IMG/VR virus record: IMGVR_UViG_3300035698_020241
Location: 62,001-126,000 of that record
Direction: 5' to 3' (one strand)
From: a virus
DNA: 64,000 bases
Positions 31,775 to 63,692 of the stretch are shown piece after piece. The notes beneath the pieces are model-generated. The model had not been told where the DNA came from, did not search any database, and saw only the letters and a program-made list of their open reading frames with translations. Every line of letters begins with the position of its first letter. The first letter of the stretch is position 1. The position numbers and the translations under genes are program-made.

Positions 31775-32680
31775 ATGTCAAATGAAATGTGGGAGTTTAA
31801 ATATACTCCTAAGAAGTTTGAAGAAATGATACTCAATCCAAGTATCAAACCAAAATTGAAACTAGCACTTGAACAATTACCTAATCTTGTACTATATGGT
31901 ACAGCAGGTGTAGGTAAAGGAACATTTGCAAATATTTTGCTCAACGAAACAGGTCTCCGAAAAGACGGAAGTATGTGGATTAACGCTTCTGATGAGACCG
32001 GTATTGATATGGTTAGATCAAAGATCAAACCATTTGCTACTTCTCTTGGTTTTACCAAGATGAAAATTGTTGTATTGAATGAAGCTGATTCACTATCACA
32101 AGGACCACAGGGCTCCCAAAAGATGTTGAAGCAGTTAATGGAAGATGTTGAAAAGAATTGTAGATTTATATTCCTCACTAATAATCTTACCCTAATGATG
32201 GACGAACTTCAATCAAGATGTGATGTAATCAAGATAGACAGTCCACCAGGATCCGAAATATTTAAATTCTGTAGTAAAATCCTAACAGCAGAAAAAGTTG
32301 CCTATAAAAAGCAAACAGTTCTTAGCATTGTTAAGAAATGTTATCCTGATATAAGGTCTACTATTAGATGCTTGCGTGAAAATACTATAAGTGGTAAATT
32401 GATAAGTGATCACAGATCGTCTTCCGAAGGTGTATGGGAAAGCATATTTAATATGATTAAGGCTATTGATGTGGATGGTGTAAGAAAGGCCCTAAGAAGT
32501 AACTATATAGAATATACCGACCTTTACAAGTATGTATATGAAAATTGTGAGAAATTTAAGGAACCAGGACTTGCCCTATTATCAATCGGCCAACATTTAG
32601 TATGGGATTCAACAGTTGCTATAAAGGAAATAAATTTCATGCATATGGTCGTAGAAATGGCCAATAGAAATATTATTTAA
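31775..32680 (+). CDS. Clamp loader large subunit, T4 gp44-like
   Basis: 301 aa. Walker A YGTAGVGKGT at 41-50, Walker B VVLNEADSLS at 99-108 (NEAD in place of DEAD) and the sensor region ELQSRCDVIKID near 145-156, where SRC is the RFC-family arginine finger box. It would load the clamp at primer ends with the gp62-like partner. AAAGGAAGTTAAT before the ATG. Followed at 12 nt by a small gene. Confidence 0.9.
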   Translation: MSNEMWEFKYTPKKFEEMILNPSIKPKLKLALEQLPNLVLYGTAGVGKGTFANILLNETGLRKDGSMWINASDETGIDMVRSKIKPFATSLGFTKMKIVVLNEADSLSQGPQGSQKMLKQLMEDVEKNCRFIFLTNNLTLMMDELQSRCDVIKIDSPPGSEIFKFCSKILTAEKVAYKKQTVLSIVKKCYPDIRSTIRCLRENTISGKLISDHRSSSEGVWESIFNMIKAIDVDGVRKALRSNYIEYTDLYKYVYENCEKFKEPGLALLSIGQHLVWDSTVAIKEINFMHMVVEMANRNII

Positions 32681-32692
32681 AGGAGAGTTATT

Positions 32693-32905
32693 ATGGAAGT
32701 AGAAATAGAAAAAATTGAACCCGTTGATCCAGTTGAATTATATATTACAGAAAATATAAAAACTTTTGATGATTTTAAAGGTTCTAAAAGAGTTGATGGA
32801 GAAGATTTTGAGGTTTATAAGATTCGTAGAAAGGCGGAAAAATTGGTTACAAAAATATACCTGCAGGGTAGATATCCTTCTCAAGACGGGAAACCTGTTG
32901 AATAA
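32693..32905 (+). CDS. Small acidic protein in the clamp-loader operon
   Basis: 70 aa, EVEIEKIEPVDPVELYITENI start. Strong AAAGGAGAG ribosome site. Stop shares a base with the gp62-like start. No T4 counterpart recognised. Confidence 0.6.
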   Translation: MEVEIEKIEPVDPVELYITENIKTFDDFKGSKRVDGEDFEVYKIRRKAEKLVTKIYLQGRYPSQDGKPVE

Positions 32906-33279
32906 TGCCTAAAAAGACCCCAGTAAAAAAAGGTCCAAATATATTTGATTTTTTAAACCAAATAACCTTTAAGACAAAAAAATATGAATATGATAGGAAA
33001 GCTGTTAATGCCTATATGTTATCTTTATGGTTATCTCATGAAAAGGATTTAATAGGAATTGTAAATGAAATGAACGGTTTCCAATTTAGGTTTCCTGATG
33101 ATTTGATATATAAATACTACTATGATAGAGTTCCTAAAGGAAAGCGTTTCATACGATGGACTAAAAAGGAAGCAGTGGACAAAAAGACAAAAGTAAAATT
33201 AGACGCTTTGAAGGAAAAATATAACATATCTACAAATGAAGCAAAGAGTTTACTTTTACATTCAAATATGTTAAAATAA
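32905..33279 (+). CDS. Clamp loader small subunit, T4 gp62-like
   Basis: 124 aa, shorter than T4 gp62 (187 aa). The C-terminal part YYYDRVPKGKRFIRWTKKE resembles the conserved VPRGKRYGKWAK of gp62. Position between gp44-like and clamp genes is the T4 order with the clamp moved downstream. Assignment rests on that motif and context. Confidence 0.7.
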   Translation: MPKKTPVKKGPNIFDFLNQITFKTKKYEYDRKAVNAYMLSLWLSHEKDLIGIVNEMNGFQFRFPDDLIYKYYYDRVPKGKRFIRWTKKEAVDKKTKVKLDALKEKYNISTNEAKSLLLHSNMLK

Positions 33280-33308: not shown

Positions 33309-34049
33309 GTGAAAGTAAATGTAGAAAATTTTAAAAACATATTGAGAAAGGCGACACTAAATTTTTCAATAAGTTCGGTTCAATTACAACTGAACCAACT
33401 AAAAATAAGTTCAAGAATGATATCTGAAAACAGAGATTGTATTGTAATACTTGATGTTGATAATGATGTCATGGCTGTAAGTGATGAACATGAGTTTAAC
33501 TTCTCTGAGCCAAACCAACAGTTAATGCCGTTTCTTAATTTGATTGATGATGATGAAGCTGATATTGATGTTCATAGTGAAAAAATTGTTGTAAAAAACG
33601 GTAGACAAAGATCAAATATACATTTTTGTTCTGGTCAAATAGTAAGTGTTTTTGGAACGGATGCTGCAAGGGAAGGTATTGAATCTTTCTTAACATTAGA
33701 TATAGATGATGGTTTCAATGATGCATTCGCAAAGATTAAAAAGATAGGATCAAGATACGGTAATGTATATTTCAATGTTGAGGATGGTGTGTTCTCTATT
33801 GAAACAGCCGATAAAACAAATAGATTTTCAAATGGATTAAAGTTTGAATTAACAAGAATGAGTGATGTACCTGATCTTTCAATTTGTTTTGATTATAAGA
33901 ATTTTATAAATCTTATGGCCGTAATCAATGGTGATTCAGAAAATTTTACACTTGAATTTTCCTATGTTGAGGAACAGGAAATGGGAATGGTATATGCAGG
34001 TAAAAATGATGGTAATGAGAAATATTACCTTATGAGTAAAGAAATCTAG
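33309..34049 (+). CDS. Sliding clamp, T4 gp45-like
   Basis: 246 aa from a GTG start with AAGGAGAAAATTT. Two-fold repeat character, acidic and beta-rich, with the gp45-like C-terminus SFYVEEQEMGMVYAG-type segment (FSYVEEQEMGMVYAG) and final YYLMSKEI. Gene order after the clamp loader supports the call. In T4 the clamp tethers the polymerase and activates late transcription. Confidence 0.8.
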   Translation: MKVNVENFKNILRKATLNFSISSVQLQLNQLKISSRMISENRDCIVILDVDNDVMAVSDEHEFNFSEPNQQLMPFLNLIDDDEADIDVHSEKIVVKNGRQRSNIHFCSGQIVSVFGTDAAREGIESFLTLDIDDGFNDAFAKIKKIGSRYGNVYFNVEDGVFSIETADKTNRFSNGLKFELTRMSDVPDLSICFDYKNFINLMAVINGDSENFTLEFSYVEEQEMGMVYAGKNDGNEKYYLMSKEI

Positions 34050-34078
34050 TTTACAAAACGACCAAACTATAGTATAAT
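34050..34078 (+). promoter_or_regulatory. Sigma70-like promoter of the Ubl operon
   Basis: TTTACA, 17 nt, TATAAT. The leader that follows holds a small hairpin GCACTAAATAGTGT before AAAGGAGGAAC. Confidence 0.8.
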
Positions 34079-34150
34079 AAGTATAAATTGTGAGTAGTAT
34101 AAAATTGTCGCACTAAATAGTGTGATGAAAATTTAAAAGGAGGAACAACA

Positions 34151-34426
34151 ATGACAGATACATATTGGGACAACAGTCCAGAAACAACTGAGGTATTCGC
34201 AGACGAAGCAAGCGCAGACACTTACATTCGTGTAAACGGAAGTAATGTAGCTCTTGAAGCCGGAGCAAACCTTATCGAAACTGTAAAGTCACAAGCCCGT
34301 GACGCTGGTCTCGGCAAATTTCGTGTTTTCATGAACGGCGAAGAAATTCGTCCTTCCGAAGCACCTGATACTATTGCTAGTGGATCTCACCTAGAGCTCA
34401 GACCTTACGATGTAGCCGGCGCATAG
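34151..34426 (+). CDS. Ubiquitin-like modifier protein
   Basis: 91 aa. After a 24-residue acidic lead, TYIRVNGSNVALEAGANLIETVKSQARDAGLGKFRVFMNGEEIRP (in parts) follows the beta-grasp order strand, strand, helix, strand, and DTIASGSHLELRPYDVAGA ends the chain. The PRTRC-C/ThiS-like layout fits a Ubl. The chain ends Gly-Ala, not Gly-Gly. Perfect ribosome site AAAGGAGG, GC-rich codons and a hairpin directly downstream suggest high dosage relative to the enzymes after it. Confidence 0.75.
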   Translation: MTDTYWDNSPETTEVFADEASADTYIRVNGSNVALEAGANLIETVKSQARDAGLGKFRVFMNGEEIRPSEAPDTIASGSHLELRPYDVAGA

Positions 34427-34452
34427 GTGACAAAGTTTTAAAGTTTTATTAT

Positions 34453-34484
34453 CTTCTACATCATAGTTATTTATGATGTAGAAG
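34453..34484 (+). promoter_or_regulatory. Perfect 12 bp hairpin after the Ubl gene
   Basis: CTTCTACATCAT/ATGATGTAGAAG with an 8-base loop. There is no T run, so it may protect or attenuate the message and make Ubl more abundant than the downstream enzymes. Confidence 0.7.
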
Positions 34485-34542
34485 GTGTAAAATGTGTAAC
34501 ATGTAGTAACTTCAAAATGTGAATAAGGAAATTGTAAATAAA

Positions 34543-35415
34543 ATGGGAATAAAAGAAAGAGCAAAAAAAGATATTGATGAAATGTTTGGTTATCTGGACA
34601 CTATTGATGTGGATAACATCAAAACGGAAGGGTTAACTATTCGTACAGGCGATAAAGTTCTCAAACTTAAAGTTATAAGTGAAAGTCCTATTCCAGAAGT
34701 TGATGAAATTCGTGAGGAATTCAGAGCAAAATTAACAGAACAGCTCCAGAAGATCAAGGAGAAAATCAATACAAAAATAACTGAAACCTCAAATTTCGTT
34801 TCAGGACTAAAAAGAGAGTATGAAAGTAAAGAAAGGGAATTAAAAGACAGACTCTCTAAGTCACAGCCAATGCCTGATGTGTTTATGACTCATGCAGAAA
34901 AAGGATTGTCTCTTGTAAAAGGTAGATATAAAGATGAATTAGTATGGCTTGTACAAGGTATTTATTGGCCTAAATTTGTTGATAGTAAACCTCTTGAAGG
35001 CAAGTTTTCTAAGAAAATGCTTACTCAAATCATTTTCTGTATTGAAACTAAAGGGAATAGAGTAATACGAGTTTCTACAAGAAAACCAGTAGATTTTACA
35101 TATTTCAGTCATTACCATCAAAGCCAACCTGATTGTTGGGGTAATTATAAACCCGCCAAAAATTTTGAAACCCCGGAAGATATAATTAATATTGCCAGAG
35201 CATCAGAAGCGGTTCTGGAAAACATTAACTTAGGCTCTATAGCCGATCATAATCCACGAGGTCTACCAAGATTAACAACGGTCAAAAGGCATGTATTGAA
35301 GGTTGATGAAATTAAAGATAAAAAGAAACTTGATATAGGCATCCTTAATCAAAATGCAAGGCGAGCTGGTATATCAGGTGATTTAAGAGTTGAAGAAGAT
35401 TCATGGTCTACTTAA
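34543..35415 (+). CDS. E2-like (UBC-fold) conjugating protein
   Basis: 290 aa from ATG with AAGGAAATT upstream. Residues 60-108 form a charged coiled coil. The domain after about 117 has FTYFSHYHQSQPDCWGNYKP, which resembles the H-x-x-x-x-x-x-C-W-G active site of bacterial E2-like proteins in Ubl operons; Cys198 is the candidate catalytic residue. Function is inferred from this motif and from the neighbours: Ubl upstream, E1-like and JAMM downstream. Confidence 0.65.
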   Translation: MGIKERAKKDIDEMFGYLDTIDVDNIKTEGLTIRTGDKVLKLKVISESPIPEVDEIREEFRAKLTEQLQKIKEKINTKITETSNFVSGLKREYESKERELKDRLSKSQPMPDVFMTHAEKGLSLVKGRYKDELVWLVQGIYWPKFVDSKPLEGKFSKKMLTQIIFCIETKGNRVIRVSTRKPVDFTYFSHYHQSQPDCWGNYKPAKNFETPEDIINIARASEAVLENINLGSIADHNPRGLPRLTTVKRHVLKVDEIKDKKKLDIGILNQNARRAGISGDLRVEEDSWST

Positions 35416-35433
35416 AAAAGAAAGGAAATAACA

Positions 35434-36033
35434 ATGTCAATCGTTTATGAAAGACAAGATTTAATTGAAGGTATAGATAAAAAGCAAACCATAACTGTAG
35501 TTGGTTGTGGTGGTATTGGATACTGGGTAGCAAAGTTGGCAGCAATGAGTGGAATTGAAAAGATGTATATCTTTGACGATGATATACTTGAAGAAGGTAA
35601 TCTTAACAGGCTTGATGTGCCGGATAAATTTGTAGGTAAAAACAAGGCAGATGTGGTGAAGATTGTTATAAACACACTTCGTCCTGAATGTACTGTTTAT
35701 GCTTTTCCTTATCGTCTTACTGAAAACCATATGATAGATGGTTCATTTCTGGTTGATTGTACGGATGAAATCCAATCTCAAATAGACAATCAAAAAATTG
35801 CTCGTAAAAAAGGAATGACCTATTTGAAGGCTGGATATAATGGGGAGGATTTCTCCATACATAACTCTGTTGCAGAATGGGGTGAAGCACCTGATGGTTA
35901 TACAAAAACTCCATCGTGGGTTGTTCCAGCATCTATAATTGCAGCACTTACCGTTGCAAAAATCATGAAGTATAAAAAACTTGAGGTAATATCAAATATA
36001 AGAGGACTCTTTGATGCACAAAGACATTCTTAA
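35434..36033 (+). CDS. ThiF/E1-like adenylyltransferase
   Basis: 199 aa. The ATP loop GCGGIG is at 24-29, YIFDDDILEEGNLNR at 46-59 matches the E1/MoeB/ThiF motif, and LVDCTDE at 107-112 is the canonical D-C-T-D. It would adenylate the Ubl C-terminus. Shorter than ThiF (about 250 aa), and no second catalytic cysteine is seen downstream, so thioester transfer may need the E2-like partner directly. AAAGGAAATAACA before the ATG. Confidence 0.85.
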   Translation: MSIVYERQDLIEGIDKKQTITVVGCGGIGYWVAKLAAMSGIEKMYIFDDDILEEGNLNRLDVPDKFVGKNKADVVKIVINTLRPECTVYAFPYRLTENHMIDGSFLVDCTDEIQSQIDNQKIARKKGMTYLKAGYNGEDFSIHNSVAEWGEAPDGYTKTPSWVVPASIIAALTVAKIMKYKKLEVISNIRGLFDAQRHS

Positions 36034-36053
36034 ATTGGAAGAGATTAAATAAT

Positions 36054-37496
36054 ATGAGTAAAGCGAGTAGAAAAAAGAGAAAGAAAAACAGGAAAAATAA
36101 ACAACGATTTAATAGAAAGGGTCAGAATATGGTAGTACATGCAGATAGTAATATATTTAATAGTAATGTAGCCGATGAATGGGAAGTTGAATTGGACATG
36201 GTAAAAGAATGTGATAAAGCTCCGAAAAAATTAGTAGTGTGGATATTACCTGAAGCAAAAGTAAAGGTTGACGCTTTGATGGAAAAATATCCAAATATTG
36301 AGTGGCTTGCATATTTACTTGGAGAGAATCAAACTATTACAGATATATGGATTCCTGGACAGGAAATAACAGCAACAAGCGTTGATAATATTGTATGTCC
36401 TGAATTCAACGATCTTAATACAATAGGTGTTATACATTCACATCATGGCATGGGAAACGGGTTCTCAGGTACAGATCATGAATGGATAAACCAAAACCAT
36501 AATATATCTCTTTGTATAGCAAAAAACGGTATAGCAGGACAAGTAAGATGGAGTACACCTTGTGGATCAATGAAGATAATTGAATGTACAGTACAACTTA
36601 AACTTGATGTTAAATTTGACAAGGGTGAGTTCTTAAAAATGTCTGAACATAACATTAAAAGAAAAGTAGTACAAGTTACTCCTAATGCATATAATGGTTA
36701 TGGTTATAATTTTAATCATCCTGGTCAGCAAAGTAAAGGTACTGATAAGGACCCATTCCCTGGATCATGTTTATCAAAACATGCAGGAGAAACAAATGAA
36801 AAAACCTTAATTGATGAGTTGTCCGAACTTGATGGTAATACAGTTGAAGAATGTGGAGATTGTATATATTTCCTTGAAACCTCTGATCAATGTCAAAGAA
36901 GTTGGCAAAATGTTACATTACATGGAACTATTTGTGATGAGTTTGATCCTGGTGATGTAGTGCCTACATGTGGATTATGTAAAGCATATAATGCTGATAC
37001 ACCAACACCTGATACAGGTAAATGTACAGACCCCGATGTAAGTTTTGATGATGTTACATTTGACGAAGCTGTTTGTATAAATTTTAAGGAAGTTGAGAAG
37101 GAAGTTGAGAAGGAAGTTGAGAAGGAAGTTGAGAAGGAAGTTGAGAAGGAAGTTGATATTGAAAAATGTTGTTTTAATTGTCACCATTTCGTACCAACAA
37201 ATCATAATGTGGGAAAATGTGGTAATGAGAATACACATTTTGGAATCGTTGGTTACGGACAAAAATGTGAACAACATAAGGAAAAAGCTGTTGAGCCTGT
37301 AAAGAGAGAACAAAATATAGTTGTAAACAAAGGACAGATTGTTTTTTGTAAAAACTGTAATTCGTTTGAACCAACATCTTATGTTGAAGGAAAATGTTCA
37401 AATAATAAGATACTTTCAGATACAGTGTCAAATGTTTCCAACTGTAGAGAATTTGTATTACGAGATCCTGTAAAGACAAAGGATATTACAAAATAA
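36054..37496 (+). CDS. JAMM/JAB metallopeptidase with cysteine-rich tail
   Basis: 480 aa. Basic N-terminus (KKRKKNRKNKQRFNRK). JAMM site: Glu83, then HSH at 128-130, Ser138 and Asp141 (HSHHGMGNGFSGTD), the exact H-x-H-x7-S-x2-D spacing of zinc isopeptidases. Residues 260-470 hold about four C-x2-C...C...C-x2-F modules that look like zinc knuckles, split by a (KEVE)n spacer encoded by 12 bp repeats. It may trim the Ubl precursor, remove Ubl from targets, or both. Confidence 0.85.
   Translation: MSKASRKKRKKNRKNKQRFNRKGQNMVVHADSNIFNSNVADEWEVELDMVKECDKAPKKLVVWILPEAKVKVDALMEKYPNIEWLAYLLGENQTITDIWIPGQEITATSVDNIVCPEFNDLNTIGVIHSHHGMGNGFSGTDHEWINQNHNISLCIAKNGIAGQVRWSTPCGSMKIIECTVQLKLDVKFDKGEFLKMSEHNIKRKVVQVTPNAYNGYGYNFNHPGQQSKGTDKDPFPGSCLSKHAGETNEKTLIDELSELDGNTVEECGDCIYFLETSDQCQRSWQNVTLHGTICDEFDPGDVVPTCGLCKAYNADTPTPDTGKCTDPDVSFDDVTFDEAVCINFKEVEKEVEKEVEKEVEKEVEKEVDIEKCCFNCHHFVPTNHNVGKCGNENTHFGIVGYGQKCEQHKEKAVEPVKREQNIVVNKGQIVFCKNCNSFEPTSYVEGKCSNNKILSDTVSNVSNCREFVLRDPVKTKDITK
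37089..37148 (+). repeat. Five perfect 12 bp tandem repeats
   Basis: GAAGTTGAGAAG repeated five times, then a partial sixth copy, coding for a (E-V-E-K)n linker in the JAMM gene. Confidence 0.95.
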
Positions 37497-37890: not shown

Positions 37891-37917
37891 GAGCCGGGCA
37901 GAAATGTCCGGCTTTTA
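37891..37917. terminator. Terminator between convergent genes
   Basis: AGCCGGGCA/TGTCCGGCT stem with GAAA loop and TTTTA on the plus side. It separates the rightward Ubl operon from the leftward protease genes. Confidence 0.75.
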
Positions 37918-38559
37918 TATTGCTCTAATGTATTTGTATAATTTTTTAATGAATTTTTTATATGTTGGATGGTTTGTTTCAAAAGAATCTTGATAATCTT
38001 TCATTATGTTTGATTCTCCACGATCTAATAACTCTATAGCAGCACCTTGAGCAAAAGCGTCCAGTTCCATAGGATCCGAAAGGTAAATGTCCTTATCAGC
38101 ATTAGGATCAAATTCATCTGGACCAAAAGATTTTCCTCTGGAAACTATATTTTGAGTAACATGTATTAATTCATGTGCCAATATAGTTGTTAATTCTTTA
38201 AAGAATTCATTATTTTGTATTTTAAAAAAATTTTCTCTTTTACCAGGTTTAGTAAATCGTCTGAAATAAGAACTTGATCCTTGTTTAACTTTTATAACTA
38301 TTGGAAGATGAGGATTATCAAATGTAAATGCTGATGTTATATGTCTTCCTAATGATAACGCTCCTCTTTTATCAAATGAAAAATATAAATTATCATTTTT
38401 GAAAGCCGCATTGAGTGTCTTTATTAATGCTGTATCGGAAATCTGCCAACCATTTTTTTCAAACACTCTACCTATCTCACCAAGGCGTTTATTCACCATT
38501 CTTATTGCGTTTTTTATAGTTGGTTTTGTTATCTCGTTTATATATTGTTTAAATCTCAT
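37915..38559 (-). CDS. HExxH metalloprotease-like protein with packaging-type N-terminus
   Basis: 214 aa. N-terminal MRFKQYINE tag. ILAHELIHVTQN near residue 140 is a zincin helix, followed by DPMELDAFAQGAA, where an acidic residue could be the third ligand. First of three related genes; 38556 and 39206 are paralogues. If the tag is cleaved after YINE by a prohead protease, the mature enzyme would be a virion internal protein. Stop lies at the terminator. Confidence 0.7.
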   Translation of the reverse strand: MRFKQYINEITKPTIKNAIRMVNKRLGEIGRVFEKNGWQISDTALIKTLNAAFKNDNLYFSFDKRGALSLGRHITSAFTFDNPHLPIVIKVKQGSSSYFRRFTKPGKRENFFKIQNNEFFKELTTILAHELIHVTQNIVSRGKSFGPDEFDPNADKDIYLSDPMELDAFAQGAAIELLDRGESNIMKDYQDSFETNHPTYKKFIKKLYKYIRAI

Positions 38560-39203
38560 TTCAATTTCTCCACATACTTTATTACTTTCTTTATAAATCT
38601 ATTCTTTGCTTTCATATCTTTAACTAAGGTGAACGCATTTAAAAGATTATCAAATGTTTTTGATACTCCAAATCTTTTCATTTCTACGGCTGCCATTTGT
38701 GCAAATGCTTCCATTTCTACTGGATCTTTAAGATAGTTTATAAATTCATACTTAGATGATTCTGGTGACATTTCAAATGATTTACCTTTAGATGCTTTAA
38801 ATTGTCTTTTGTGTAATAATTCATGTGATATGGCATCCAAAAGATTTCTGAAAAACTCATTTTTATCTATATCATAAAATATTTGTTGTCTTTTAGGCTT
38901 AGCAAATTGTTTAAATGCTTTACCTACACCAGGAGATACTATAATCATTATTAATAAACCTTCAGCGGCTATATTACCACCTTCAATATATTTACTATGC
39001 CTATCTTTACCTTTACCCAAAATGAACAGTATACCATCTTTCTTGAACATACTGGTCAACATAGATACTATAGCATTATCATTCATTATCCAATTATTTT
39101 TATTAAGTATACGAAACATTTCAGCCATATGACTTTCTATCATCTTCTTAGTTTTACTAACAGTTGGTTTTGTTATCTCATTTATATATTGTTTAAACCT
39201 CAT
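38556..39203 (-). CDS. HExxH metalloprotease-like protein, paralogue 2
   Basis: 215 aa. MRFKQYINEITKPTV start, AISHELLHKRQF zincin motif, DPVEMEAFAQMAA. Overlaps the next gene by 4 nt. Same architecture as 37915-38559; the first 14 residues are nearly identical, including at DNA level. Confidence 0.7.
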   Translation of the reverse strand: MRFKQYINEITKPTVSKTKKMIESHMAEMFRILNKNNWIMNDNAIVSMLTSMFKKDGILFILGKGKDRHSKYIEGGNIAAEGLLIMIIVSPGVGKAFKQFAKPKRQQIFYDIDKNEFFRNLLDAISHELLHKRQFKASKGKSFEMSPESSKYEFINYLKDPVEMEAFAQMAAVEMKRFGVSKTFDNLLNAFTLVKDMKAKNRFIKKVIKYVEKLK

Positions 39204-41721: not shown

Positions 41722-42066
41722 ATGGAACAACAAATAATGACAATTCTTACCGCTGTAACACCTGCTATGTATTGGATGTTCGCCAAAGTTGTTGTGGCGT
41801 TCTTTTTAGTAAAAATATTAAATGATATTCTAACTAATGGCACAGCATGGTTTATGTTCAAGAGTAATAAGAAATTAAGTCCTGGTGTTAAAGTACAAGT
41901 AAATGGAGATATAGGAATTATAACAGATTATGATTGGAATTTTATTCATATAGATACTGAAAATGGTGATGAAATGTTAGTTCCTATAGCAAGATGGAAA
42001 ATTCTAACATGGAAAGTAAAAAATCTTAAAAAGGAACTATACAGAGGGAATAAAGATGAAATTTAG
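41722..42066 (+). CDS. MscS-like beta-domain membrane protein
   Basis: 114 aa. Residues 10-50 are membrane-embedded; the following LSPGVKVQVNGDIGIITDYDWNF and GDEMLVPIARW resemble the beta domain of MscS channels. Only one or two membrane helices are present, so it is a minimal or partial version. Overlaps the next gene by 11 nt. Confidence 0.5.
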   Translation: MEQQIMTILTAVTPAMYWMFAKVVVAFFLVKILNDILTNGTAWFMFKSNKKLSPGVKVQVNGDIGIITDYDWNFIHIDTENGDEMLVPIARWKILTWKVKNLKKELYRGNKDEI

Positions 42067-42349
42067 AAAATATATAAGTGAAGAAAGTCCTTCTAAGATG
42101 GTATCAATAAAGGATATTATTAAAAAGGTTAAATCACATAAAGGGAAATTTATTGCATATGCCGCTGGTTTTGGAATGTTTAATGGAAATGGTGAAATGC
42201 CGATAGATAAAAAAAGATTACTAAAAAGATTAGAAAGTAGTAATAAGAGTTCATTTTTAGAACTACATATTAATGGTAAAATATTAAGAATAGGATATGC
42301 TTTATCGTTCTTAAATAGTAAAAATTTTGATAAGTTCTTTCCTAAATAA
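42056..42349 (+). CDS. Packaging-tag protein of unknown function
   Basis: 97 aa. MKFRKYISEESPSK start fits the shared tag (M-K-F-x-x-Y-I-x-E). The rest is basic and globular. Candidate virion internal protein. Confidence 0.55.
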   Translation: MKFRKYISEESPSKMVSIKDIIKKVKSHKGKFIAYAAGFGMFNGNGEMPIDKKRLLKRLESSNKSSFLELHINGKILRIGYALSFLNSKNFDKFFPK

Positions 42350-42366: not shown

Positions 42367-42834
42367 ATGAAATTTGGAAAATATATGAACATCTGTGAAA
42401 GTAGTAAAGAATTCATAATGGATGTTTTAACAATAGATGATCCTATTAATAAGGATTATATTGAGGATGAAGATAATAAAAAAGAGGCTGAAAAGAATCT
42501 AAGAGAATTAAGGAAAGCTATAAGATTTCAAAAGAAAGATATTAAGTCTTGGGAAATGAAACGATTCTCGGAAGATAATGTTGAAGCCGCTGAGGCAATT
42601 CTTGATGATCTTCAAGTATCCTTAAAGAAATGGGAGGAATCATTAGTGGCTCCTCCACCTGAACCAGTTAAAGAACCTGACGAAGAACCTAAACCAGAAC
42701 AACCTATTCCTGGTGAAGAACCAAAGGATAAACCCGAAGAAAAACCAAAAGATAAAGAAGATAAACCAAAAGATGATGGTAAACCGGAAGAGGAAGAGGA
42801 AGAAAGAGGAGCAGGACTAGTAAATGAAATTTAG
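42367..42834 (+). CDS. Packaging-tag protein with Pro/Glu-rich tail
   Basis: 155 aa. MKFGKYMNICESSKE start. Residues 30-90 are helical and charged; the last 60 are disordered P/E/K repeats (EPVKEPDEEPKPEQP). Overlaps the next gene by 11 nt. Confidence 0.55.
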   Translation: MKFGKYMNICESSKEFIMDVLTIDDPINKDYIEDEDNKKEAEKNLRELRKAIRFQKKDIKSWEMKRFSEDNVEAAEAILDDLQVSLKKWEESLVAPPPEPVKEPDEEPKPEQPIPGEEPKDKPEEKPKDKEDKPKDDGKPEEEEEERGAGLVNEI

Positions 42835-43672
42835 TGATTACATAGTTGAAAAGGATACAGAAAATCCTTTTTTGAATTCATGGTCTAAAATAAAAAAAGA
42901 TTGTGGTCCGTTTCTCAAAGAGTTAAAGAGTTTAGGACTTAAAAAAGGATCTTTATTTTATAGAGGATCACAGACAAGTGTTGCTCACATTAAAAAAGTA
43001 GTTCCTAGAAAAGGTAGAAAACCTAAAGATACCCCAATAGAGATACACAAAATACTTGATGATGCCTTTAATAAAAAGTTTGGATGGCGTGCAAGAAGTA
43101 ATGGTGTATTTGCTGTTTCTGATTATATGGACGCAAGTTCATATGGACGCGCATATGTCTTCTTTCCTATAGGAAAATACAAATATGTATGGTCACCAAG
43201 AGTTGAAGATTTATATACCAAAGTTAGGGATGAAATAGGATTTTCTTTAGATTCTGATAATAGAGAAGTTTGGGATGATTTATATGGACCAAATAATGCC
43301 AAAGATGGCGGTACATGGGTATATGATGGTAAAATACTACATTACTCTAACTTTTTTGATCATGCCAGGGATCTTGTAATTGAAGATATATTAAAAGGTG
43401 ATGAAAGTAAATTTGATGAAGATTTGATGAAGTGGAAACCAGAGAAAAAATTTAAAGAATGGGTAAAAACGGCAAAGAATGATGAAATGAATGAGATAAA
43501 AGATGATATAGAAAAATTGATGCATTTTTATATTACCGATAATATGAAAAAAGCCATAACAACACAATATGAAGTAATGTTTTCATGTGCATCCTACTAT
43601 CTTGTACCTGCTACATGGAGATTTTTACTTGAAGACGCTGTATATAAAAACAAATTACCTAATATAGGATAA
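42824..43672 (+). CDS. ADP-ribosyltransferase-like protein with packaging tag
   Basis: 282 aa. MKFSDYIVEKD start. LFYRGSQTS near residue 45 (the R of R-S-E), RSNGVFAVSDY near 93 (S-T-S-like) and a late YEVMFSCASYYLV fit an ART fold; no clear E-x-E pair is seen, so activity is doubtful. T4 packages and injects the ART Alt, which makes this attractive. Paralogue at 45095. Confidence 0.5.
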   Translation: MKFSDYIVEKDTENPFLNSWSKIKKDCGPFLKELKSLGLKKGSLFYRGSQTSVAHIKKVVPRKGRKPKDTPIEIHKILDDAFNKKFGWRARSNGVFAVSDYMDASSYGRAYVFFPIGKYKYVWSPRVEDLYTKVRDEIGFSLDSDNREVWDDLYGPNNAKDGGTWVYDGKILHYSNFFDHARDLVIEDILKGDESKFDEDLMKWKPEKKFKEWVKTAKNDEMNEIKDDIEKLMHFYITDNMKKAITTQYEVMFSCASYYLVPATWRFLLEDAVYKNKLPNIG

Positions 43673-43674
43673 TA

Positions 43675-44379
43675 ATGAGACTTAAACAATATATAAATGA
43701 AGGTATAGAAGATAAAGGAATACTAAAGGCTGTATTTATAGTAGGCCATCCTGGTAGTGGCAAGAGTTATGTGTTATCAAAAATTAAATCAGGACAAATA
43801 GAACCAAGAGTTGTAAATACGGATAAGGTTTTTCCTTTATACTCTAAAGATGAATGGGATAAATGGGTAGATATAAAAACCAAAGTAAAAACAATTAATA
43901 AAAATCAGTTAGCAAATTATATAAATTCTATGTTACCATTGGCTGTTGATGGTACAGGCACAGAACCAAGTGTTATATTAAGAAGAGTTGGTATACTTGA
44001 ATCATTTGGATATGATGTTGGAATGGTATTTATTAACACTTCTCTTGAAACCGCACTTGAAAGGGCTGGAAAAAGAGATAGACCTGTAGATCCAGACTTT
44101 ATCAAAAGAGTATATAAAAGAATACAAGATGCAAAACAATTCTATCGTAGTAAATTTAGTGATTGGCAGGAGATACAAAATGATAAAGGAGAACTTACAG
44201 AAAAGGTAATTATTGATGCTTTTAAACATATGACATCATTCTATAATTCTCCAATGGTAAATCCTGTTGGTAAAGAGATTATACAAAAGATGAAAGAAAA
44301 TAAGTGGAAATATTTAAGTCCTAATATAAAGGATATAAAAGAAATACAGAATATGATGAGTGCATGGTATAGAATGTAA
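43675..44379 (+). CDS. P-loop kinase (polynucleotide-kinase/zeta-like) with packaging tag
   Basis: 234 aa. MRLKQYINEG tag, then Walker A VGHPGSGKS at 23-31, VNTDK near 47, DGTGTE near 90, and a lid RAGKRDRPVD near 140. This is the fold of nucleic-acid 5' kinases and zeta-type kinases; the substrate cannot be read. Coupled to a HAD phosphatase 10 nt later, as in bifunctional end-repair enzymes, which suggests RNA 5'-end repair. Confidence 0.7.
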   Translation: MRLKQYINEGIEDKGILKAVFIVGHPGSGKSYVLSKIKSGQIEPRVVNTDKVFPLYSKDEWDKWVDIKTKVKTINKNQLANYINSMLPLAVDGTGTEPSVILRRVGILESFGYDVGMVFINTSLETALERAGKRDRPVDPDFIKRVYKRIQDAKQFYRSKFSDWQEIQNDKGELTEKVIIDAFKHMTSFYNSPMVNPVGKEIIQKMKENKWKYLSPNIKDIKEIQNMMSAWYRM

Positions 44380-44878: not shown

Positions 44879-45095
44879 TAACCTCTTAGTAGAAAAGAGC
44901 ACTCTTTTCAAAAGAAATTTTAAGAAGGTAGGACCTGCTTGGATTGAAAACAAAATGAGTAAAGTCGTAAAAATAAAAAAGATTGGAGATATATGGGAAG
45001 GCTATCATAAAGGAAAACATGTTCTTAATTATGATAGTGATGATTATGTTTTATATTCAAATATGTCCATGATACAATTAGAGGACCTTAAATAA
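44856..45095 (+). CDS. Small basic protein, possible packaging tag
   Basis: 79 aa. MDILKKINNLLVEKS loosely fits the tag (L-L-V-E). Basic. Overlaps neighbours on both sides (23 nt and 1 nt). Function unknown. Confidence 0.5.
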   Translation: MDILKKINNLLVEKSTLFKRNFKKVGPAWIENKMSKVVKIKKIGDIWEGYHKGKHVLNYDSDDYVLYSNMSMIQLEDLK

Positions 45096-45757
45096 TGAAA
45101 TTCAAAAAGTTTTTAAATGAGGCCACACTTGAAAAAATAGAAGAAGCTGCAAAAATGATTGCAAGAGATTGTAAGCCTTATCTTAAAGAGAATACTATTG
45201 TAAAAACTTCCGTAGGATATATTTTTAAAAGTAACGGAACACTTTATAGAGGATGTAAGGGTAAAGTTGATGTATTTAAAAAGATAACACCTCGTAGTAA
45301 TAGAATACCTGTGGATATTACAGTAGATATACATAAAAGACTTGATGTGTTATTTAAAGAAAAGTTTGGATGGAAAGTTAGAAGTGAAGGTGTATTTACA
45401 ACTGGAAGTAAATTTGTCGCTGGTTGTTATGGTGGTGATGATGGTGGATATATTGTATTTCCTATAGGAAAATACAAATTTGTATGGAGTCCTAAAGTAT
45501 ATGATATGTGGGACACATTAAGATATACATATAATCTTACTGCTGGTGAGTCAGGAGGTAAAAAGCAAAGTCTTTATACAATAGGACTCACAACTCATGA
45601 AAAAATTTTAAAGGATATTGTAAATTCATTTATAGATAAAAATTTAGAAAAAGGAATAGAATCAGGAAATGAAATAACATTAAAAGTAGGATCATATTAT
45701 TTAGTTGAACATATTAATATGGGTGCAATTTTACAGGAATTAGGTAAATTGATATGA
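45095..45757 (+). CDS. ADP-ribosyltransferase-like protein with packaging tag, paralogue
   Basis: 220 aa. MKFKKFLNEATLEK tag. TLYRGCKGKV near residue 48, FGWKVRSEGVFTTGSKF near 92 and IVFPIGKYKFVWSPKVYD near 115 align with 42824-43672. Late GNEITLKVGSYYLV carries a single Glu. ART call tentative. Confidence 0.5.
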   Translation: MKFKKFLNEATLEKIEEAAKMIARDCKPYLKENTIVKTSVGYIFKSNGTLYRGCKGKVDVFKKITPRSNRIPVDITVDIHKRLDVLFKEKFGWKVRSEGVFTTGSKFVAGCYGGDDGGYIVFPIGKYKFVWSPKVYDMWDTLRYTYNLTAGESGGKKQSLYTIGLTTHEKILKDIVNSFIDKNLEKGIESGNEITLKVGSYYLVEHINMGAILQELGKLI

Positions 45758-47163
45758 GACTAACTCAATATATAAATGAAGAAAAAGAAATGCTTAAACA
45801 ATGGAAACAATATATAGTGCGTAACAAAATGCTATTTAACGCGGTTAAGATTCTTGATAATATAAACAAGAAAGGATATTCTGCGTATGTGGTCGGCGGA
45901 TCAGTGCGTGATATTATACTTGGTGTAAATCCACATGATGTTGATATAGCTACAAACATGCCAATAAAAGAACTAGAGAAATTATATAGAGTTCATGATA
46001 TAGGTAAATCTAAAGATTTTGGAATAGTTACCATAAAACAAGGAGGATTTAATTATGAAATTGCGCAGTTTAGGACCGATGGATTATATAAAGATGGTAG
46101 GAGACCTGATAAAGTGCGAATCGCCGTTTCATTTGAGGATGATGCTTCTCGCCGCGATTTTACTATTAATGCTATGGCGATTGACTCAAAAGGTAACATC
46201 TTGGATTTCTTTAATGGTAGAAAAGATATTAAGAATAAAACACTCAAAACTGTGGGTGATCCTACGAAACGCTTTAAAGAAGATCATTTAAGAATGATGA
46301 GAGCTGCAAGGTTCTCATCTAAGTTAGACCTCAAAGTAGATAAGGCTACAGAAAAAGCAGCACAAAAACTTTCAAGTAATATACAAAAATTGTCACCAGA
46401 AAGATTGCGTGACGAACTAATGAAGTCTGCGGCTCAAAGTGGAGATAGATTTGCCACATATATCAGAATACTTGATAATTTCAAAATTCTAAAATATGTA
46501 TTACCAGAACTTATACAACTTAAATATATGAAACACCAATTAAAACATCACCCGGAGGGACCCACCGTATGGGATCATGTAATGGCTGCACTTGAGGTTA
46601 GTCAAACAAAAGATCCTATAAAAAATTTGGCAATAATTTTACATGATATAGGTAAGGGTATATCTTTAACATACAAAGACGGATTGCCAAAATATCTTGG
46701 TCATGCTCATGCTGGTATCAGTATGGTCAATGCAATTGCTGATAGACTTAAATTTTCAAAGAAAGATAGACTGGCGCTTACATTTGCAATTAGTAATCAT
46801 ATGAAAATGCACGATGTTTTAAAGATGAAACCAAGTAAGATCGCAAAATTAGTAAACGATGAAAATTGGGATGTATTAGTTGCCGTTGCTCATGCAGATG
46901 AGTATTCAAGAGGTGAGACATTCATGCATGCTGGTCAATTTGAAAAAATTATTGATAAGTGTATTAAAATCAAAGAAAAATATGGTATTAGGGATGTTGA
47001 AAAGAAATTAAAATTAGTGGATGGTCATCACGCAATGACAATAACTGGATTGAAATCTGGTAAAAAACTTGGTGATATTATAAGGAAAACTACAACTTGG
47101 ATAATAGATCAAGATATAGAAAAACAAGAAGAAATTGATAAATATATGAAGAAATTGGTTTAA
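45754..47163 (+). CDS. CCA-adding enzyme / poly(A) polymerase-type nucleotidyltransferase with HD domain and packaging tag
   Basis: 469 aa. MRLTQYINEEKEM tag. Class II motif VVGGSVRDIILG at 47-58, catalytic DVD at 62-64, RRDFTINAMAID near 130, ERLRDEL near 213, then an HD domain with ILHDIGKG near 292 and NHMKMHD near 345. In bacteria this architecture adds or repairs CCA at tRNA ends; one phage tRNA here (Val) lacks encoded CCA. The tag hints that it is delivered with the genome. Confidence 0.85.
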   Translation: MRLTQYINEEKEMLKQWKQYIVRNKMLFNAVKILDNINKKGYSAYVVGGSVRDIILGVNPHDVDIATNMPIKELEKLYRVHDIGKSKDFGIVTIKQGGFNYEIAQFRTDGLYKDGRRPDKVRIAVSFEDDASRRDFTINAMAIDSKGNILDFFNGRKDIKNKTLKTVGDPTKRFKEDHLRMMRAARFSSKLDLKVDKATEKAAQKLSSNIQKLSPERLRDELMKSAAQSGDRFATYIRILDNFKILKYVLPELIQLKYMKHQLKHHPEGPTVWDHVMAALEVSQTKDPIKNLAIILHDIGKGISLTYKDGLPKYLGHAHAGISMVNAIADRLKFSKKDRLALTFAISNHMKMHDVLKMKPSKIAKLVNDENWDVLVAVAHADEYSRGETFMHAGQFEKIIDKCIKIKEKYGIRDVEKKLKLVDGHHAMTITGLKSGKKLGDIIRKTTTWIIDQDIEKQEEIDKYMKKLV

Positions 47164-47383: not shown

Positions 47384-47665
47384 ATGAAATTAAAAAAATA
47401 CTTAATAGAATCCAAGATAGCAGGATCAGAAAGGAAAAAGTTAATTGAAATTTTTAAGAGTAAACCAAAAAAGGCCACCTTTTACTTCAAAAACTTTGGT
47501 CCAATGGATATACGATCATCAAAAGGTGTTACGATTTTTACATATGATACAGCTGAATATAATTTGACAATGGAATTAATTAATCTTGTGGATTCTTTAG
47601 ATGAATTTGAATTTGAAACAAAAATTAAAGGTAATGAAATAAAATTTCGGGTAATTCCAGTTTAG
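47384..47665 (+). CDS. Packaging-tag protein of unknown function
   Basis: 93 aa. MKLKKYLIESKIAGS start fits the tag. Remaining region basic then acidic, alpha/beta. Last gene of the rightward run. Confidence 0.55.
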   Translation: MKLKKYLIESKIAGSERKKLIEIFKSKPKKATFYFKNFGPMDIRSSKGVTIFTYDTAEYNLTMELINLVDSLDEFEFETKIKGNEIKFRVIPV

Positions 47666-55098: not shown

Positions 55099-55439
55099 TA
55101 AGTGATAATGTTATGAAACTTAAAGAGTTTGGAGATTCTATATATTATAGAGTTGGTTGTGATTGTATGGATAAAAGATGTGAGTTAACCATGGAACTAG
55201 AACTTGATGAAGATGATAAAATGATATATTTAAATCTATATAAGGACTTAGTATGGGATGAATACTATAATAATGATAATAGATTTACAAGATTTTGGAG
55301 ACGAATAAAATGTACATTAAGAATGTTATTTACAGGTCGTATTGAACTTGAAAGTTGTCTTGTATTAAAAAATAATAATATGATGGCCCTCCGTGATGCA
55401 ATTGATGAAGGTATATCAATAATGGAGGAAAAGAAATAG
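55095..55439 (+). CDS. Hypothetical protein
   Basis: 114 aa starting MISDNVMKLKEFGD; GGAGGAGAATAT lies upstream. Contains GCDCMDKRCELTMELELDEDDK and a basic middle region. No family recognised. Confidence 0.55.
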   Translation: MISDNVMKLKEFGDSIYYRVGCDCMDKRCELTMELELDEDDKMIYLNLYKDLVWDEYYNNDNRFTRFWRRIKCTLRMLFTGRIELESCLVLKNNNMMALRDAIDEGISIMEEKK

Positions 55440-56722
55440 TGAAAAAAAAGGTAAATCCTGAAAGGGATGCTAGATTAAAAAAGGAGTATGAGGAGTGGTT
55501 AGACACAGAAACATTTGATCCAGAAGGTATGGGAACAGACGAGTTAGAAAGAGACCTAACTAAAGAACTAACATTTCTCCATAAAATGAGTGCAGAGGAA
55601 TACACTCTGTATCGTAAGTGGCAGGAGATACAATTAAAATACCCACCAAAAGTTTCAAAGAAGAAAAATCCATTTTTTAATGTAGGACAAAAGAGTTCTG
55701 GTTATCCAAAACTTGATGAAATAAAAAATAACCTTTGGATGCCAGAGTCACCAGAGGATTATCTTAAACTTGAACCAGTTGTTCTATGGACAATGGTTGG
55801 TACAAAAAAGGAAGTACAACAGAAAACAAAAACTTGGTCAATGTTGAGAACATTTACATCTACAATGTTGAACAATTCAAATATAGGTAGAAATCTTAGA
55901 TTTATAATACATGATAATGTTACTGGTAAATATCTTGGTGTGATATGTGCATCATCTGATTTTATGGACTTAACACCCCGTGATAAGTACATTGGTTGGA
56001 CAAGAGAAGTAAAGACCACTAAAAAGATGATAAATCATACATCTATTGGATCATCAATAGTTCCAACACAACCACTAGGTTACAACTTTGTAGGTGGTAA
56101 ATTATTAGCATTACTCACATTATCAAGGACTATTGAAAATGCATGGGATAGTAGATATAAAGATAAATTAGTGGCAATGACCACAACATCTTTATATGGA
56201 TCATTTTCTCAGTATAACGGATTAAAGTTCTGGAATAAAAGAGGTCATTCAGCCGGTAGTATTAAATTTGAACCATCAAAAAAGATTGTAATGAGAATGA
56301 GAGAATGGTTAAAAAATAATCATACATTACGATATTGGGAATGGTATCATGCCCAAAACGATCAAAATATGCCACTCAAAAGAGATCATAAACAAAGGTC
56401 TCTATCATTTATATACAGACAATTGGATATTCCAAAAGAATTATACCAGGCATCACATACAAGAGGTATTTACTTTTGTCCATTGTTTAATAATTCTTGT
56501 GATTTCTTACGGAAAGAGATAGAAGTAGGTAAACTTGTAAGACGATTCGATAATTCTACTCATACTCTTGTTGATCTGTGGAAAAATAGATATGCTAAAA
56601 AACGAGTTGAAAAACTTGTGAAAGATGAGAAATATAATACAACTTCTTTATTCTATGATGATTTGATAGGAGTATCATGGGAAGAAGCTAAAGAAAAATA
56701 TCTTAAAGATGTAGGGAGATAA
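55439..56722 (+). CDS. DruA-like (DUF4338-type) protein, copy 1
   Basis: 427 aa from a GTG overlapping the previous stop. Conserved blocks: GRNLRFIIHDNVTGKYLGVICASSD, PTQPLGYNFVGGKLLALLTLS, and MTTTSLYGSFSQYNGLKFW (in parts), which resemble the DUF4338 fold of Druantia DruA. N-terminal 60 residues are charged. Function in phages unknown. Call is by eye; a paralogue follows. Confidence 0.6.
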   Translation: MKKKVNPERDARLKKEYEEWLDTETFDPEGMGTDELERDLTKELTFLHKMSAEEYTLYRKWQEIQLKYPPKVSKKKNPFFNVGQKSSGYPKLDEIKNNLWMPESPEDYLKLEPVVLWTMVGTKKEVQQKTKTWSMLRTFTSTMLNNSNIGRNLRFIIHDNVTGKYLGVICASSDFMDLTPRDKYIGWTREVKTTKKMINHTSIGSSIVPTQPLGYNFVGGKLLALLTLSRTIENAWDSRYKDKLVAMTTTSLYGSFSQYNGLKFWNKRGHSAGSIKFEPSKKIVMRMREWLKNNHTLRYWEWYHAQNDQNMPLKRDHKQRSLSFIYRQLDIPKELYQASHTRGIYFCPLFNNSCDFLRKEIEVGKLVRRFDNSTHTLVDLWKNRYAKKRVEKLVKDEKYNTTSLFYDDLIGVSWEEAKEKYLKDVGR

Positions 56723-56723
56723 T

Positions 56724-57830
56724 ATGAAAGCATTAAAAAAGAAGATCATTGGAGACTTTGATTTTCTACAAAAAATGACCATACCGGAGTATACACTATA
56801 TGCAAAATGGGTGGAAATAAACAAAAAGAAATACACATCAACTGAACAATCTAGACTTTGGGAAATAAAGAATAGTTTATGGTATCCAAATAAACCAGAG
56901 GACTATTTGAAAGTTCAACCAAAAGTGATTGTGGTTAAAACTAAAGAGGACTCACAGACTTGGACACTATTGAGAACATTCATTTCAACCATGAAATGGA
57001 ATCAAAATGTTGGAAGAATTATAAGATATACTATTATGGATAAAAAAACCATGACATATCTTGGTGTAATTTCTCTTGCATCTGATTTTATATCATTAGG
57101 CCCCAGGGACTCTGAAATAGGATGGGATTATACTAACAGAATAAAACAAAAGATGTTAGCTTATACAGCAATGGGTTCTTCAATAGTTCCCACACAACCA
57201 TTAGGTTACAACTTTGTAGGTGGTAAATTGATATCATTAATTGTTAGTTCTGATAAAGTTGTTGATCCATGGAATGAAAAATATAAAGAGAACTTGGCTG
57301 GTATTACAACCACAAGTCTTTATGGTGGATTCTCACAATATAATAGATTGAAACATTGGAAGAAATGTGGTACTACTACAGGTAAGATACCAATGGAACC
57401 ATCAGAGGATAGCTACTTAGCAATCAGAGAGTGGGTGAAAAAAACACATCCAAAAGATTTTTTGAAACTCACACAAAATAAGAATGGTAAAATACTATCA
57501 AGACCAAAGGCAAAGATGTTATCATTTGCTTATACAAAACTACAAATAAAACCGCCTGTGAATAACGCCCCAAGAGGTGTATATTATTGTAACCTCAATA
57601 CGAAAGGAAACGAGTTTTTAAGGAAAGACAGTGATGATATGGGTGAGAGTTTATTTGATAACAAACTCCAAACATTGGTTGATTTGTGGAAAACAAAGTA
57701 TGCTAAAAAACGGGTTGAGAACTTGTTAAAGACTGATAGATATAATACTGATTCTTTATTCTATGATACTTTGATAGGTAAGAGCTGGGAAGAAACACGG
57801 GAAATGTATCTAGCTAAAGTAAAGAGTTAA
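56724..57830 (+). CDS. DruA-like (DUF4338-type) protein, copy 2
   Basis: 368 aa. Same blocks as the upstream gene: GRIIRYTIMDKKTMTYLGVI, PTQPLGYNFVGGKL, ITTTSLYGGFSQYNRLKHW, and the shared C-terminal VDLWK-x-K/RYAKKRVE, SLFYD, SWEE. Lacks part of the N-terminal extension. Starts 2 nt after the previous stop. Confidence 0.6.
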   Translation: MKALKKKIIGDFDFLQKMTIPEYTLYAKWVEINKKKYTSTEQSRLWEIKNSLWYPNKPEDYLKVQPKVIVVKTKEDSQTWTLLRTFISTMKWNQNVGRIIRYTIMDKKTMTYLGVISLASDFISLGPRDSEIGWDYTNRIKQKMLAYTAMGSSIVPTQPLGYNFVGGKLISLIVSSDKVVDPWNEKYKENLAGITTTSLYGGFSQYNRLKHWKKCGTTTGKIPMEPSEDSYLAIREWVKKTHPKDFLKLTQNKNGKILSRPKAKMLSFAYTKLQIKPPVNNAPRGVYYCNLNTKGNEFLRKDSDDMGESLFDNKLQTLVDLWKTKYAKKRVENLLKTDRYNTDSLFYDTLIGKSWEETREMYLAKVKS

Positions 57831-63344: not shown

Positions 63345-63476
63345 TTAACCAATTATATCATCTAATGTTTGTACTAAATTATCTACATATATACCGACTT
63401 CTTTTAATTTTCTTTTCCATTGTAACTTTCTTACAGATCCTACTTCTACACTATAAAGATCATTTTTAAGTCTCAT
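63345..63476 (-). CDS. 43-residue protein
   Basis: Frame MRLKNDLYSVEVGSVRKLQWKRK...DDIIG. Its ATG overlaps the stop of the upstream gene (TAATG), so translation is coupled. The first four residues match the tag MRLK but the rest does not. Confidence 0.55.
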   Translation of the reverse strand: MRLKNDLYSVEVGSVRKLQWKRKLKEVGIYVDNLVQTLDDIIG

Positions 63477-63682
63477 TATTTTATCCTTTTAAGGTTTTTT
63501 ATTCTTTTGAACATTGATAGTTTCATACTTAATTGTTTACTATTCCGTGGCTGGTAAATTGTATACTCTACAAAGCCATCCTTAGTTATATTATTTACAG
63601 TATATGATGGATAAGTATCATTTACTTCGTAAGATTTTCCAACTTCAATTTTTACTTCATTTATATATTGTTTAAGTCTCAT
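63476..63682 (-). CDS. Packaging-tag protein of unknown function
   Basis: 68 aa starting MRLKQYINEVKIEVGKSY, with AAGGAGATAGTA upstream. The first nine codons are almost identical to those at 43675. Remaining part is beta-type. Candidate virion internal protein. Confidence 0.6.
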   Translation of the reverse strand: MRLKQYINEVKIEVGKSYEVNDTYPSYTVNNITKDGFVEYTIYQPRNSKQLSMKLSMFKRIKNLKRIK

Positions 63683-63692
63683 TACTATCTCC

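Follow-up and report, generated by a model that had tools for sequence, protein, structure and literature searches.

A conserved phage operon predicted to encode a ubiquitin-like conjugation cycle next to T4-type clamp genes

Related systems and the phage operon

A 2006 survey predicted bacterial operons that combine a ubiquitin-like protein (Ubl), an E2, an E1, and a JAB peptidase; some of these lie on plasmids or integrative and conjugative elements (ICEs), and the only phage set it described was the pair formed by the Ubl TAPI and the JAB protein TAPK (PMC1779556). Bil/Bub-type systems are bacterial operons tied to defense or stress (PMC13373217). The operon described here lies in a stretch of 64,000 nucleotides, called the window in what follows, which corresponds to bases 62001-126000 of the virus record IMGVR_UViG_3300035698_020241 (126,240 bases in total). 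The gene calls give four consecutive open reading frames (ORFs) on the same strand, at window positions 34151-37496, that encode a Ubl, an E2-like protein, an E1, and a JAMM peptidase, directly downstream of the T4-type clamp-loader and sliding-clamp genes. Together they probably constitute a phage-made system that is self-contained, conjugates a Ubl reversibly, and differs from PRTRC, CBASS, and lambda TAPI/TAPK. Ubiquitin-like tagging is otherwise familiar from eukaryotes and certain bacteria. Whereas sets of this composition had been known from the chromosomes, plasmids, and integrative elements of bacteria and, more recently, as anti-phage immunity, this one appears to be the phage's own. 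The operon and the genes preceding it are as follows:

31775..32680, + strand: clamp-loader large subunit, T4-type gp44-like (phrog_168, E=1.7e-59; position kept in 42 of the contigs described below)
32905..33279, + strand: clamp-loader small subunit, T4-type gp62-like (Pfam Phage_clamp_A, 2.4e-12; phrog_225, 3e-24)
33309..34049, + strand: sliding clamp, gp45-like, with a GTG start (phrog_223, DNA polymerase processivity factor, 8e-6)
34151..34426, + strand: Ubl, predicted beta-grasp modifier of 91 aa (AlphaFold, Foldseek, codon usage)
34451..34486, + strand: predicted RNA hairpin with a 16-bp stem in the gap between the Ubl and E2-like genes (RNA folding)
34519..35415, + strand: E2-like protein, 298 aa from GTG or 290 aa from ATG 34543 (motif, invariant residues, AlphaFold)
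35434..36033, + strand: E1-like ThiF/MoeB adenylyltransferase, 199 aa (Pfam ThiF, 5e-20; invariant residues)
36054..37496, + strand: JAMM metalloprotease, 480 aa (Prok-JAB in 23 of 24 members; hhalign to PRTRC A, 96.4%)

Comparison with described systems

The PRTRC cassette, a Ub-like system of plasmids and ICEs (row 6d of Iyer 2006, comprising the JAMM protein A, the Prok-E2_D protein B, the Ubl C, and a ThiF protein), likewise holds a stand-alone Ubl, an E2-like protein, a JAMM protein, and a ThiF-type E1 in one operon, and the first-pass annotation had pointed to this likeness. It holds for one half of the operon: when the phage profiles were aligned with those of plasmid PRTRC cassettes by hhalign, the E1 (98.9%) and the JAMM protein (96.4%) proved homologous, whereas the E2-like protein and the Ubl (0.4% each) did not. 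The JAMM proteins of both systems share the motif IHSHHxM..FSxTD. For the E1, the score indicates homology only, and the match to the NCBIfam model PRTRC_ThiF (E=1.3e-4, 21 bits) stays far from the cut-off of 144.75. The gene order also differs, being Ubl-[helical protein]-E2-JAMM-E1 in PRTRC and Ubl-E2-E1-JAMM in the phage; the additional alpha-helical protein that PRTRC encodes between Ubl and E2 is replaced by a short gap in most clamp-linked phage operons. In addition, the phage E2-like protein has a conserved His before its Cys, which the E2s of row 6d lack (PMC1779556). Since the comparison holds for E1 and JAMM and fails for Ubl and E2, membership in PRTRC was rejected; by these sequence comparisons, the phage operon draws on the same stock of E1 and JAMM proteins, with a modifier and an E2-like protein of its own and without the helical partner. 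The PRTRC cassettes of cyanobacterial plasmids (L168, L170, L175, L177, L179) lie near genes for single-stranded DNA-binding protein, primase/polymerase, or DNA polymerase III delta, a loose parallel to the clamp linkage of the phage operon. One phage contig (L057:3305-7729) carries a Prok-E2_D protein (Pfam 5e-4, below the cut-off), an E1, and a JAMM-like protein; this phage-borne set is of PRTRC type and stands apart from the family of the window.

With CBASS type II, the operon has in common the E1 and E2 chemistry and a JAMM protease (Cap2/Cap3), and the E1 domains are homologous (PDB Cap2, 3e-12). However, Cap2 joins E2 and E1 in one polypeptide and conjugates the CD-NTase itself, while the phage encodes the E1 and the E2-like protein as separate genes together with a real Ubl. 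This assignment was also rejected, as no CD-NTase was found among the ORFs scanned beside the operon and no Cap2-like E2-E1 fusion is present. The four-part set of Ubl, E2, E1, and JAMM is the same kind of inventory as that of Bil, and the phage operon is set apart from the Bil/Bub systems by their description as bacterial defense or stress operons.

The TAPI and TAPK proteins of phages lambda and T1 resemble the operon in joining a phage-borne Ubl with a conserved C-terminal Gly to a JAB peptidase (PMC1779556). Unlike it, they come without E1 or E2, belong to the tail cluster, and carry an NlpC/P60 domain fused to the JAB domain. No protein of the operon matched NlpC/P60 and its neighbors are replication genes, so this membership was discarded as well. 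The ThiS-ThiF and MoaD-MoeB pairs also consist of a beta-grasp protein and a single-domain adenylyltransferase with the adenylation residues seen in the phage pair. Contrary to them, the phage operon has an extra Cys protein and a JAMM peptidase, no sulfur-transfer genes were found with it, and its Ubl ends in AG or AG-x and not in GG.

The four proteins

The AlphaFold model of the Ubl shows the order beta-beta-alpha-beta-beta-beta with a core pLDDT (predicted local distance difference test) of ~90, and a Foldseek search of the PDB returned almost only MoaD, ThiS, ubiquitin, SUMO, and SAMP, at probabilities of up to 0.99 with a best E of just 0.02. In sequence searches, the window Ubl had no match in Pfam (one relative matches ThiS at 0.0015) or NCBIfam, the Ubl and the E2-like protein gave only noise or coiled-coil matches in Pfam, NCBIfam, PADLOC, and PHROGs, and their profiles gave coiled-coil or chance matches against PDB sequences. 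The C-terminal region is conserved as [YF][DE]xAG; about half of the copies end exactly at the G and the others bear extra residues, as in the window copy (...PYDVAGA). Model and conserved tail are consistent with a beta-grasp modifier ending in a C-terminal Gly, which a minority of relatives lack, and the fold matches and element order bear out the modifier that the first-pass annotation had placed at 34151.

The E1 matches Pfam ThiF at E=5e-20, and its family profile has Uba1 as the best PDB match (1e-20), followed by MccB, TcdA, ThiF, UBA5, and MoeB. Invariant in 24 sequences are R7, GxGGxG, D48/D50, R59, K71, and D111. The conserved residues correspond to the adenylation residues R14, R73, K86, and D130 of MoeB. 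For R73, K86, and D130, this role is documented (PMC12355090). The protein has neither a C-terminal rhodanese nor a Ubl-fold domain. The ThiF/E1 adenylyltransferase read from the letters at the outset is thus supported by the Pfam match and the conserved residues, which indicate an adenylating enzyme with its catalytic residues in place.

The E2-like protein consists of an N-terminal region with a long coiled coil followed by an alpha/beta core bearing F-x-H-Y-H-x5-D-C206-W-G. Its ORF opens at GTG 34519, with ATG 34543 as a likely start; the 290-residue form proposed earlier corresponds to this ATG, its Cys198 being C206 in the 298-aa ORF. Y199, H200, C206, and G208 are invariant among 25 sequences, and the Cys is kept in all 50 of the longer relatives. 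In AlphaFold, residues 120-265 are modeled with a pLDDT mostly above 90, in the order beta-beta-beta-helix-beta-beta, motif loop, helix. Compared with UbcH5b, both this order and the distances that separate the final strand from the His, the Cys, and the following helix resemble those of a UBC domain. Two tandem E2-like genes occur between Ubl and E1 in L079/L127/L151 (contigs 3300046710_000261, 3300048804_000103).

The JAMM protein of the window matches Prok-JAB at E=6e-4, under the curated Pfam cut-off, and 23 of the 24 family members match that model, the best at 1.4e-9. H128-S-H130-x7-S138-x2-D141 and E83 are invariant among 24 distinct sequences, so the exact H-x-H-x7-S-x2-D spacing noted at first holds throughout, and the predicted (iso)peptidase site appears intact. 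The nearest PDB sequences are the deubiquitinases AMSH and RPN11, although weakly (E ~0.06). The zinc-knuckle tail noted together with it is real in the window, where four C-x2-C...C...C units and an (EVEK)n linker are found, but is not conserved among relatives: these C-terminal tails are highly variable (window 36850-37470; L071, L075, L139, L108), several of them holding unrelated zinc-finger units of the CxxC type, and L153 has its Cys-rich tail on the E1 instead.

Synteny and distribution

Scans of viral contigs by E1, Ubl, E2, and JAMM yielded 70 contigs, the window included, of which 49 hold all four genes, with order and strand identical in every one, more than chance would give. A phage operon for a Ubl cycle, as first annotated, is well supported. 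In 42 contigs the order extends to seven genes (clamp loader large subunit, small subunit, clamp, Ubl, E2, E1, JAMM), and the clamp profile was matched in 45 contigs having a Ubl. Because of near-duplicates among the contigs (L002-L005 are a single phage), these counts overstate independence; 35 of the 42 are non-identical, with mean pairwise identities of 37% for the clamp, 41% for Ubl, 36% for E2, 51% for E1, and 34% for JAMM. In an independent sample selected by the clamp loader, 32 of 37 clamp-bearing loci are followed immediately by the operon or at least by its beginning. Seven four-gene contigs lack the clamp and belong to other phage backgrounds with other neighbors, for example terminase genes in L022 and L024, as read from the sequence. 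In more divergent phages (L153-L157, L160), a different Cys protein stands between the Ubl and the E1, and JAMM again comes last. By hhalign, the E2-like family of the window aligns at 98.8% with that of L158 and at 88.7% with those of L155/L157/L160. In the phage contigs L109 (3476-4246) and L161 (7028-7996), a protein with an E2-like motif, HPHV...ICxG, and a Cys-rich RING- or treble-clef-like tail is followed by E1 and JAMM, with no Ubl gene seen.

A scan of 84,980 bacterial and archaeal genomes gave zero matches for the E2-like protein and only two contigs for the E1, both phage-like: one of 6.3 kb in a Thermoplasmata metagenome-assembled genome (MAG), with the same clamp synteny, and one of 27.9 kb in a Ca. 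Izimaplasma MAG, also present in IMG/VR. As these scans depend on short conserved peptides, absence from them is not proof. Annotated phage records held no relative of the E2-like protein, the Ubl, or the JAMM protein, and only generic MoeB/ThiF entries for the E1; the family is also undescribed in the open-access literature searched, a search that covered neither subscription papers nor preprints. The operon, annotated at first as an unusual phage version, is a phage-borne family (49 contigs) rather than a single oddity, and no annotated phage genome searched holds the complete set.

The phage itself is a deep-branching T4-like phage, given the T4-type replication genes in the window and the T4 major capsid protein gp23 found in relatives (E 1e-76 to 1e-108). 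Besides the clamp genes, the window encodes a T4-type DNA polymerase (phrog_262, 3.6e-117), which is ~32% identical to those of cyanophages and of Methylophilales phage Melnitz. Two helicases are encoded as well, one of them DnaB-like and the other a DNA helicase matching phrog_16.

Expression signals

The Ubl gene differs from its surroundings in codon usage. C-ending codons make up 61% of its two-fold pyrimidine codons, against 18% across 81 tested window genes, and this share (0.61) ranks first among the 160 ORFs of the whole record. In 54 of 59 contigs the Ubl bias exceeds the mean of the operon and clamp neighbors (Wilcoxon 1.6e-10, for contigs that are not independent), and in five relatives it is similar to that of gp23 (Ubl/gp23: 0.36/0.32, 0.44/0.53, 0.27/0.36, 0.52/0.47, 0.35/0.45). 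A strong ribosome-binding site, AAAAGGAGG, precedes the gene. The gap between Ubl and E2 is not conserved in sequence, and yet most relatives have a strong predicted hairpin there (33 distinct gaps, median z -3.6, 73% below -3), whereas the gap between clamp and Ubl has a median z of -0.35. From its position, the predicted hairpin likely separates high expression of the Ubl from that of the enzyme genes. Codon signature and hairpin both suggest that the modifier is made in larger amounts than the enzymes. An Rfam scan around the operon gave no match. A near form of the T4 late promoter, TATAAATA, lies upstream of Ubl in the window and was not used as evidence, because only 5 of 52 relatives show it.

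Proposed cycle and alternative explanations

In the proposed cycle, Ubls that carry one to several extra residues would first be trimmed back to the conserved C-terminal Gly, probably by the JAMM peptidase. The E1 would then adenylate the abundant Ubl, the invariant Cys of the E2-like protein would accept it as a thioester and pass it to lysines of target proteins, and the JAMM peptidase would later take it off again. Production of the Ubl at levels far above those of the enzymes would fit a stoichiometric modifier. The targets are most likely phage or host proteins active at the stage of replication or late transcription; as the main lineage keeps the operon tightly linked to the clamp genes, the replisome and clamp-dependent late transcription are the first place to look for them.

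Several observations weigh against conjugation, and the main internal difficulties are a minority of Ubls without Gly and the E2 fold. The Gly of the terminal region is missing from L069/L070 (KAA), L086 (KAA), L075 (EASAS), L142 (TPASS), L156, and L157. The H...CWG active site assigned to the E2-like protein at the outset is present as a motif, but the UBC fold is not confirmed: Foldseek of the whole model against PDB and BFVD returned no E2, Pfam E2 models match none of the 25 members, and hhalign gives no relation to PRTRC B. As fold searches returned no E2, the label derives from motif, gene position, and element order, and E2 identity is the weakest link of the system. In the E1, no Cys is widely conserved beyond that in DCTD, and an E1 thioester is for this reason not predicted. 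Finally, five of the 37 clamp-bearing relatives lack the operon, and their records contain no E1 or JAMM of the family, showing that the operon is not essential to the lineage.

By analogy with the ubiquitination and SUMOylation of PCNA, the phage Ubl might tag its own clamp, the clamp loader, or clamp-bound factors through the phage-only E2 family and so switch between replication, repair, and late transcription, a specific scenario that we consider unlikely. The linkage stands about an even chance of being mere history, the operon having been gained once beside core clamp genes and passed on from there, while acting on targets that have nothing to do with replication. Seven four-gene contigs carry the operon without the clamp, and the five clamp-bearing relatives lack it, so adjacency may reflect inheritance; the distance matrices of operon and clamp, moreover, correlate only moderately. 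Against this, strict adjacency at a mean clamp identity of 37% suggests, without proving it, selection for co-expression or co-function.

The same genes could also serve other ends. A role in virion assembly, in which the abundant Ubl tags or joins head or tail proteins and is trimmed by JAMM as in lambda TAPI/TAPK, would agree with a Ubl codon bias close to that of the capsid gene gp23 and with the lambdoid phages, in which tail assembly is connected with a Ubl and a JAB protein (PMC1779556). Such a role is nevertheless doubtful, as no structural gene was recognized beside the operon, the constant neighbors are replication genes, and TAPK is a JAB plus NlpC/P60 protein that works without E1 or E2 partners. 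Lower still is the probability of a sulfur carrier, where E1 and Ubl would form a thiocarboxylate for tRNA thiolation or cysteine synthesis, the JAMM peptidase would recycle the carrier, and the middle protein would be a transferase (as in MoaD/ThiS/Urm1 or CysO-Mec+). In favor of it, the E1 consists of one ThiF domain and lacks a conserved catalytic Cys, the Ubl resembles MoaD/ThiS, and the phage has 23 predicted tRNA genes, RtcB, and a tRNA nucleotidyltransferase. Yet the closest E1 by profile is Uba1 and not MoeB, no E1-rhodanese fusion exists, intact operons always place the invariant Cys protein between Ubl and E1, and rhodanese, MnmA, and PALP genes were not found in the phage's own record, which is a fragment.

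The first-pass annotation had suggested that the operon could counter CBASS or Bil. Interference of the Ubl, the E2-like protein, or the JAMM peptidase with Ubl-based host immunity (CBASS Cap2/Cap3, Bil, Bub) is not supported by the findings and seems as improbable as the sulfur carrier. Host systems of such chemistry do exist, and the E1 matches CBASS E1-E2 models and a Cap2 alignment (98.4%), but these matches reflect only the shared ThiF superfamily, and no other PADLOC model convincingly matches Ubl, E2, or JAMM. A complete modifier and cycle kept in 49 contigs goes beyond an inhibitor's needs. Moreover, the locus sits in a replication cluster, where the only striking neighbors are the clamp loader and the sliding clamp and no defense or anti-defense gene was identified beside the operon.

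In a T4-like lineage, the operon belongs stably to the replication cluster and is probably highly expressed; other phage groups have it too. If the conjugation reading is true, phages tag proteins reversibly to serve their own biology, and the phage-specific E2 family would add a new branch to ubiquitin history.

Other genes of the window

The 23 predicted tRNA genes lie at 2424-31328, with the RtcB RNA ligase at 27831-28943 and the tRNA nucleotidyltransferase at 45754-47163. The ORFs at 55439-56722 and 56724-57830 are neighbors and probably paralogs, each matching phrog_19197, with no function assigned.

A short N-terminal tag, M[RK][FL]-x-x-[YF]-[ILV]-x-E (e.g., MRFKQYINE), opens nine of the 105 window ORFs: 37915-38559(-), 38556-39203(-), 42056-42349, 42824-43672, 43675-44379, 45095-45757, 45754-47163, 47384-47665, and 63476-63709(-). 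The same tag is found in the relative L005 at 8256 and 8639. It resembles the capsid-targeting sequence of T4; if it has that function, metallopeptidase-like, kinase-like, and tRNA nucleotidyltransferase proteins would be packaged in the head and injected.

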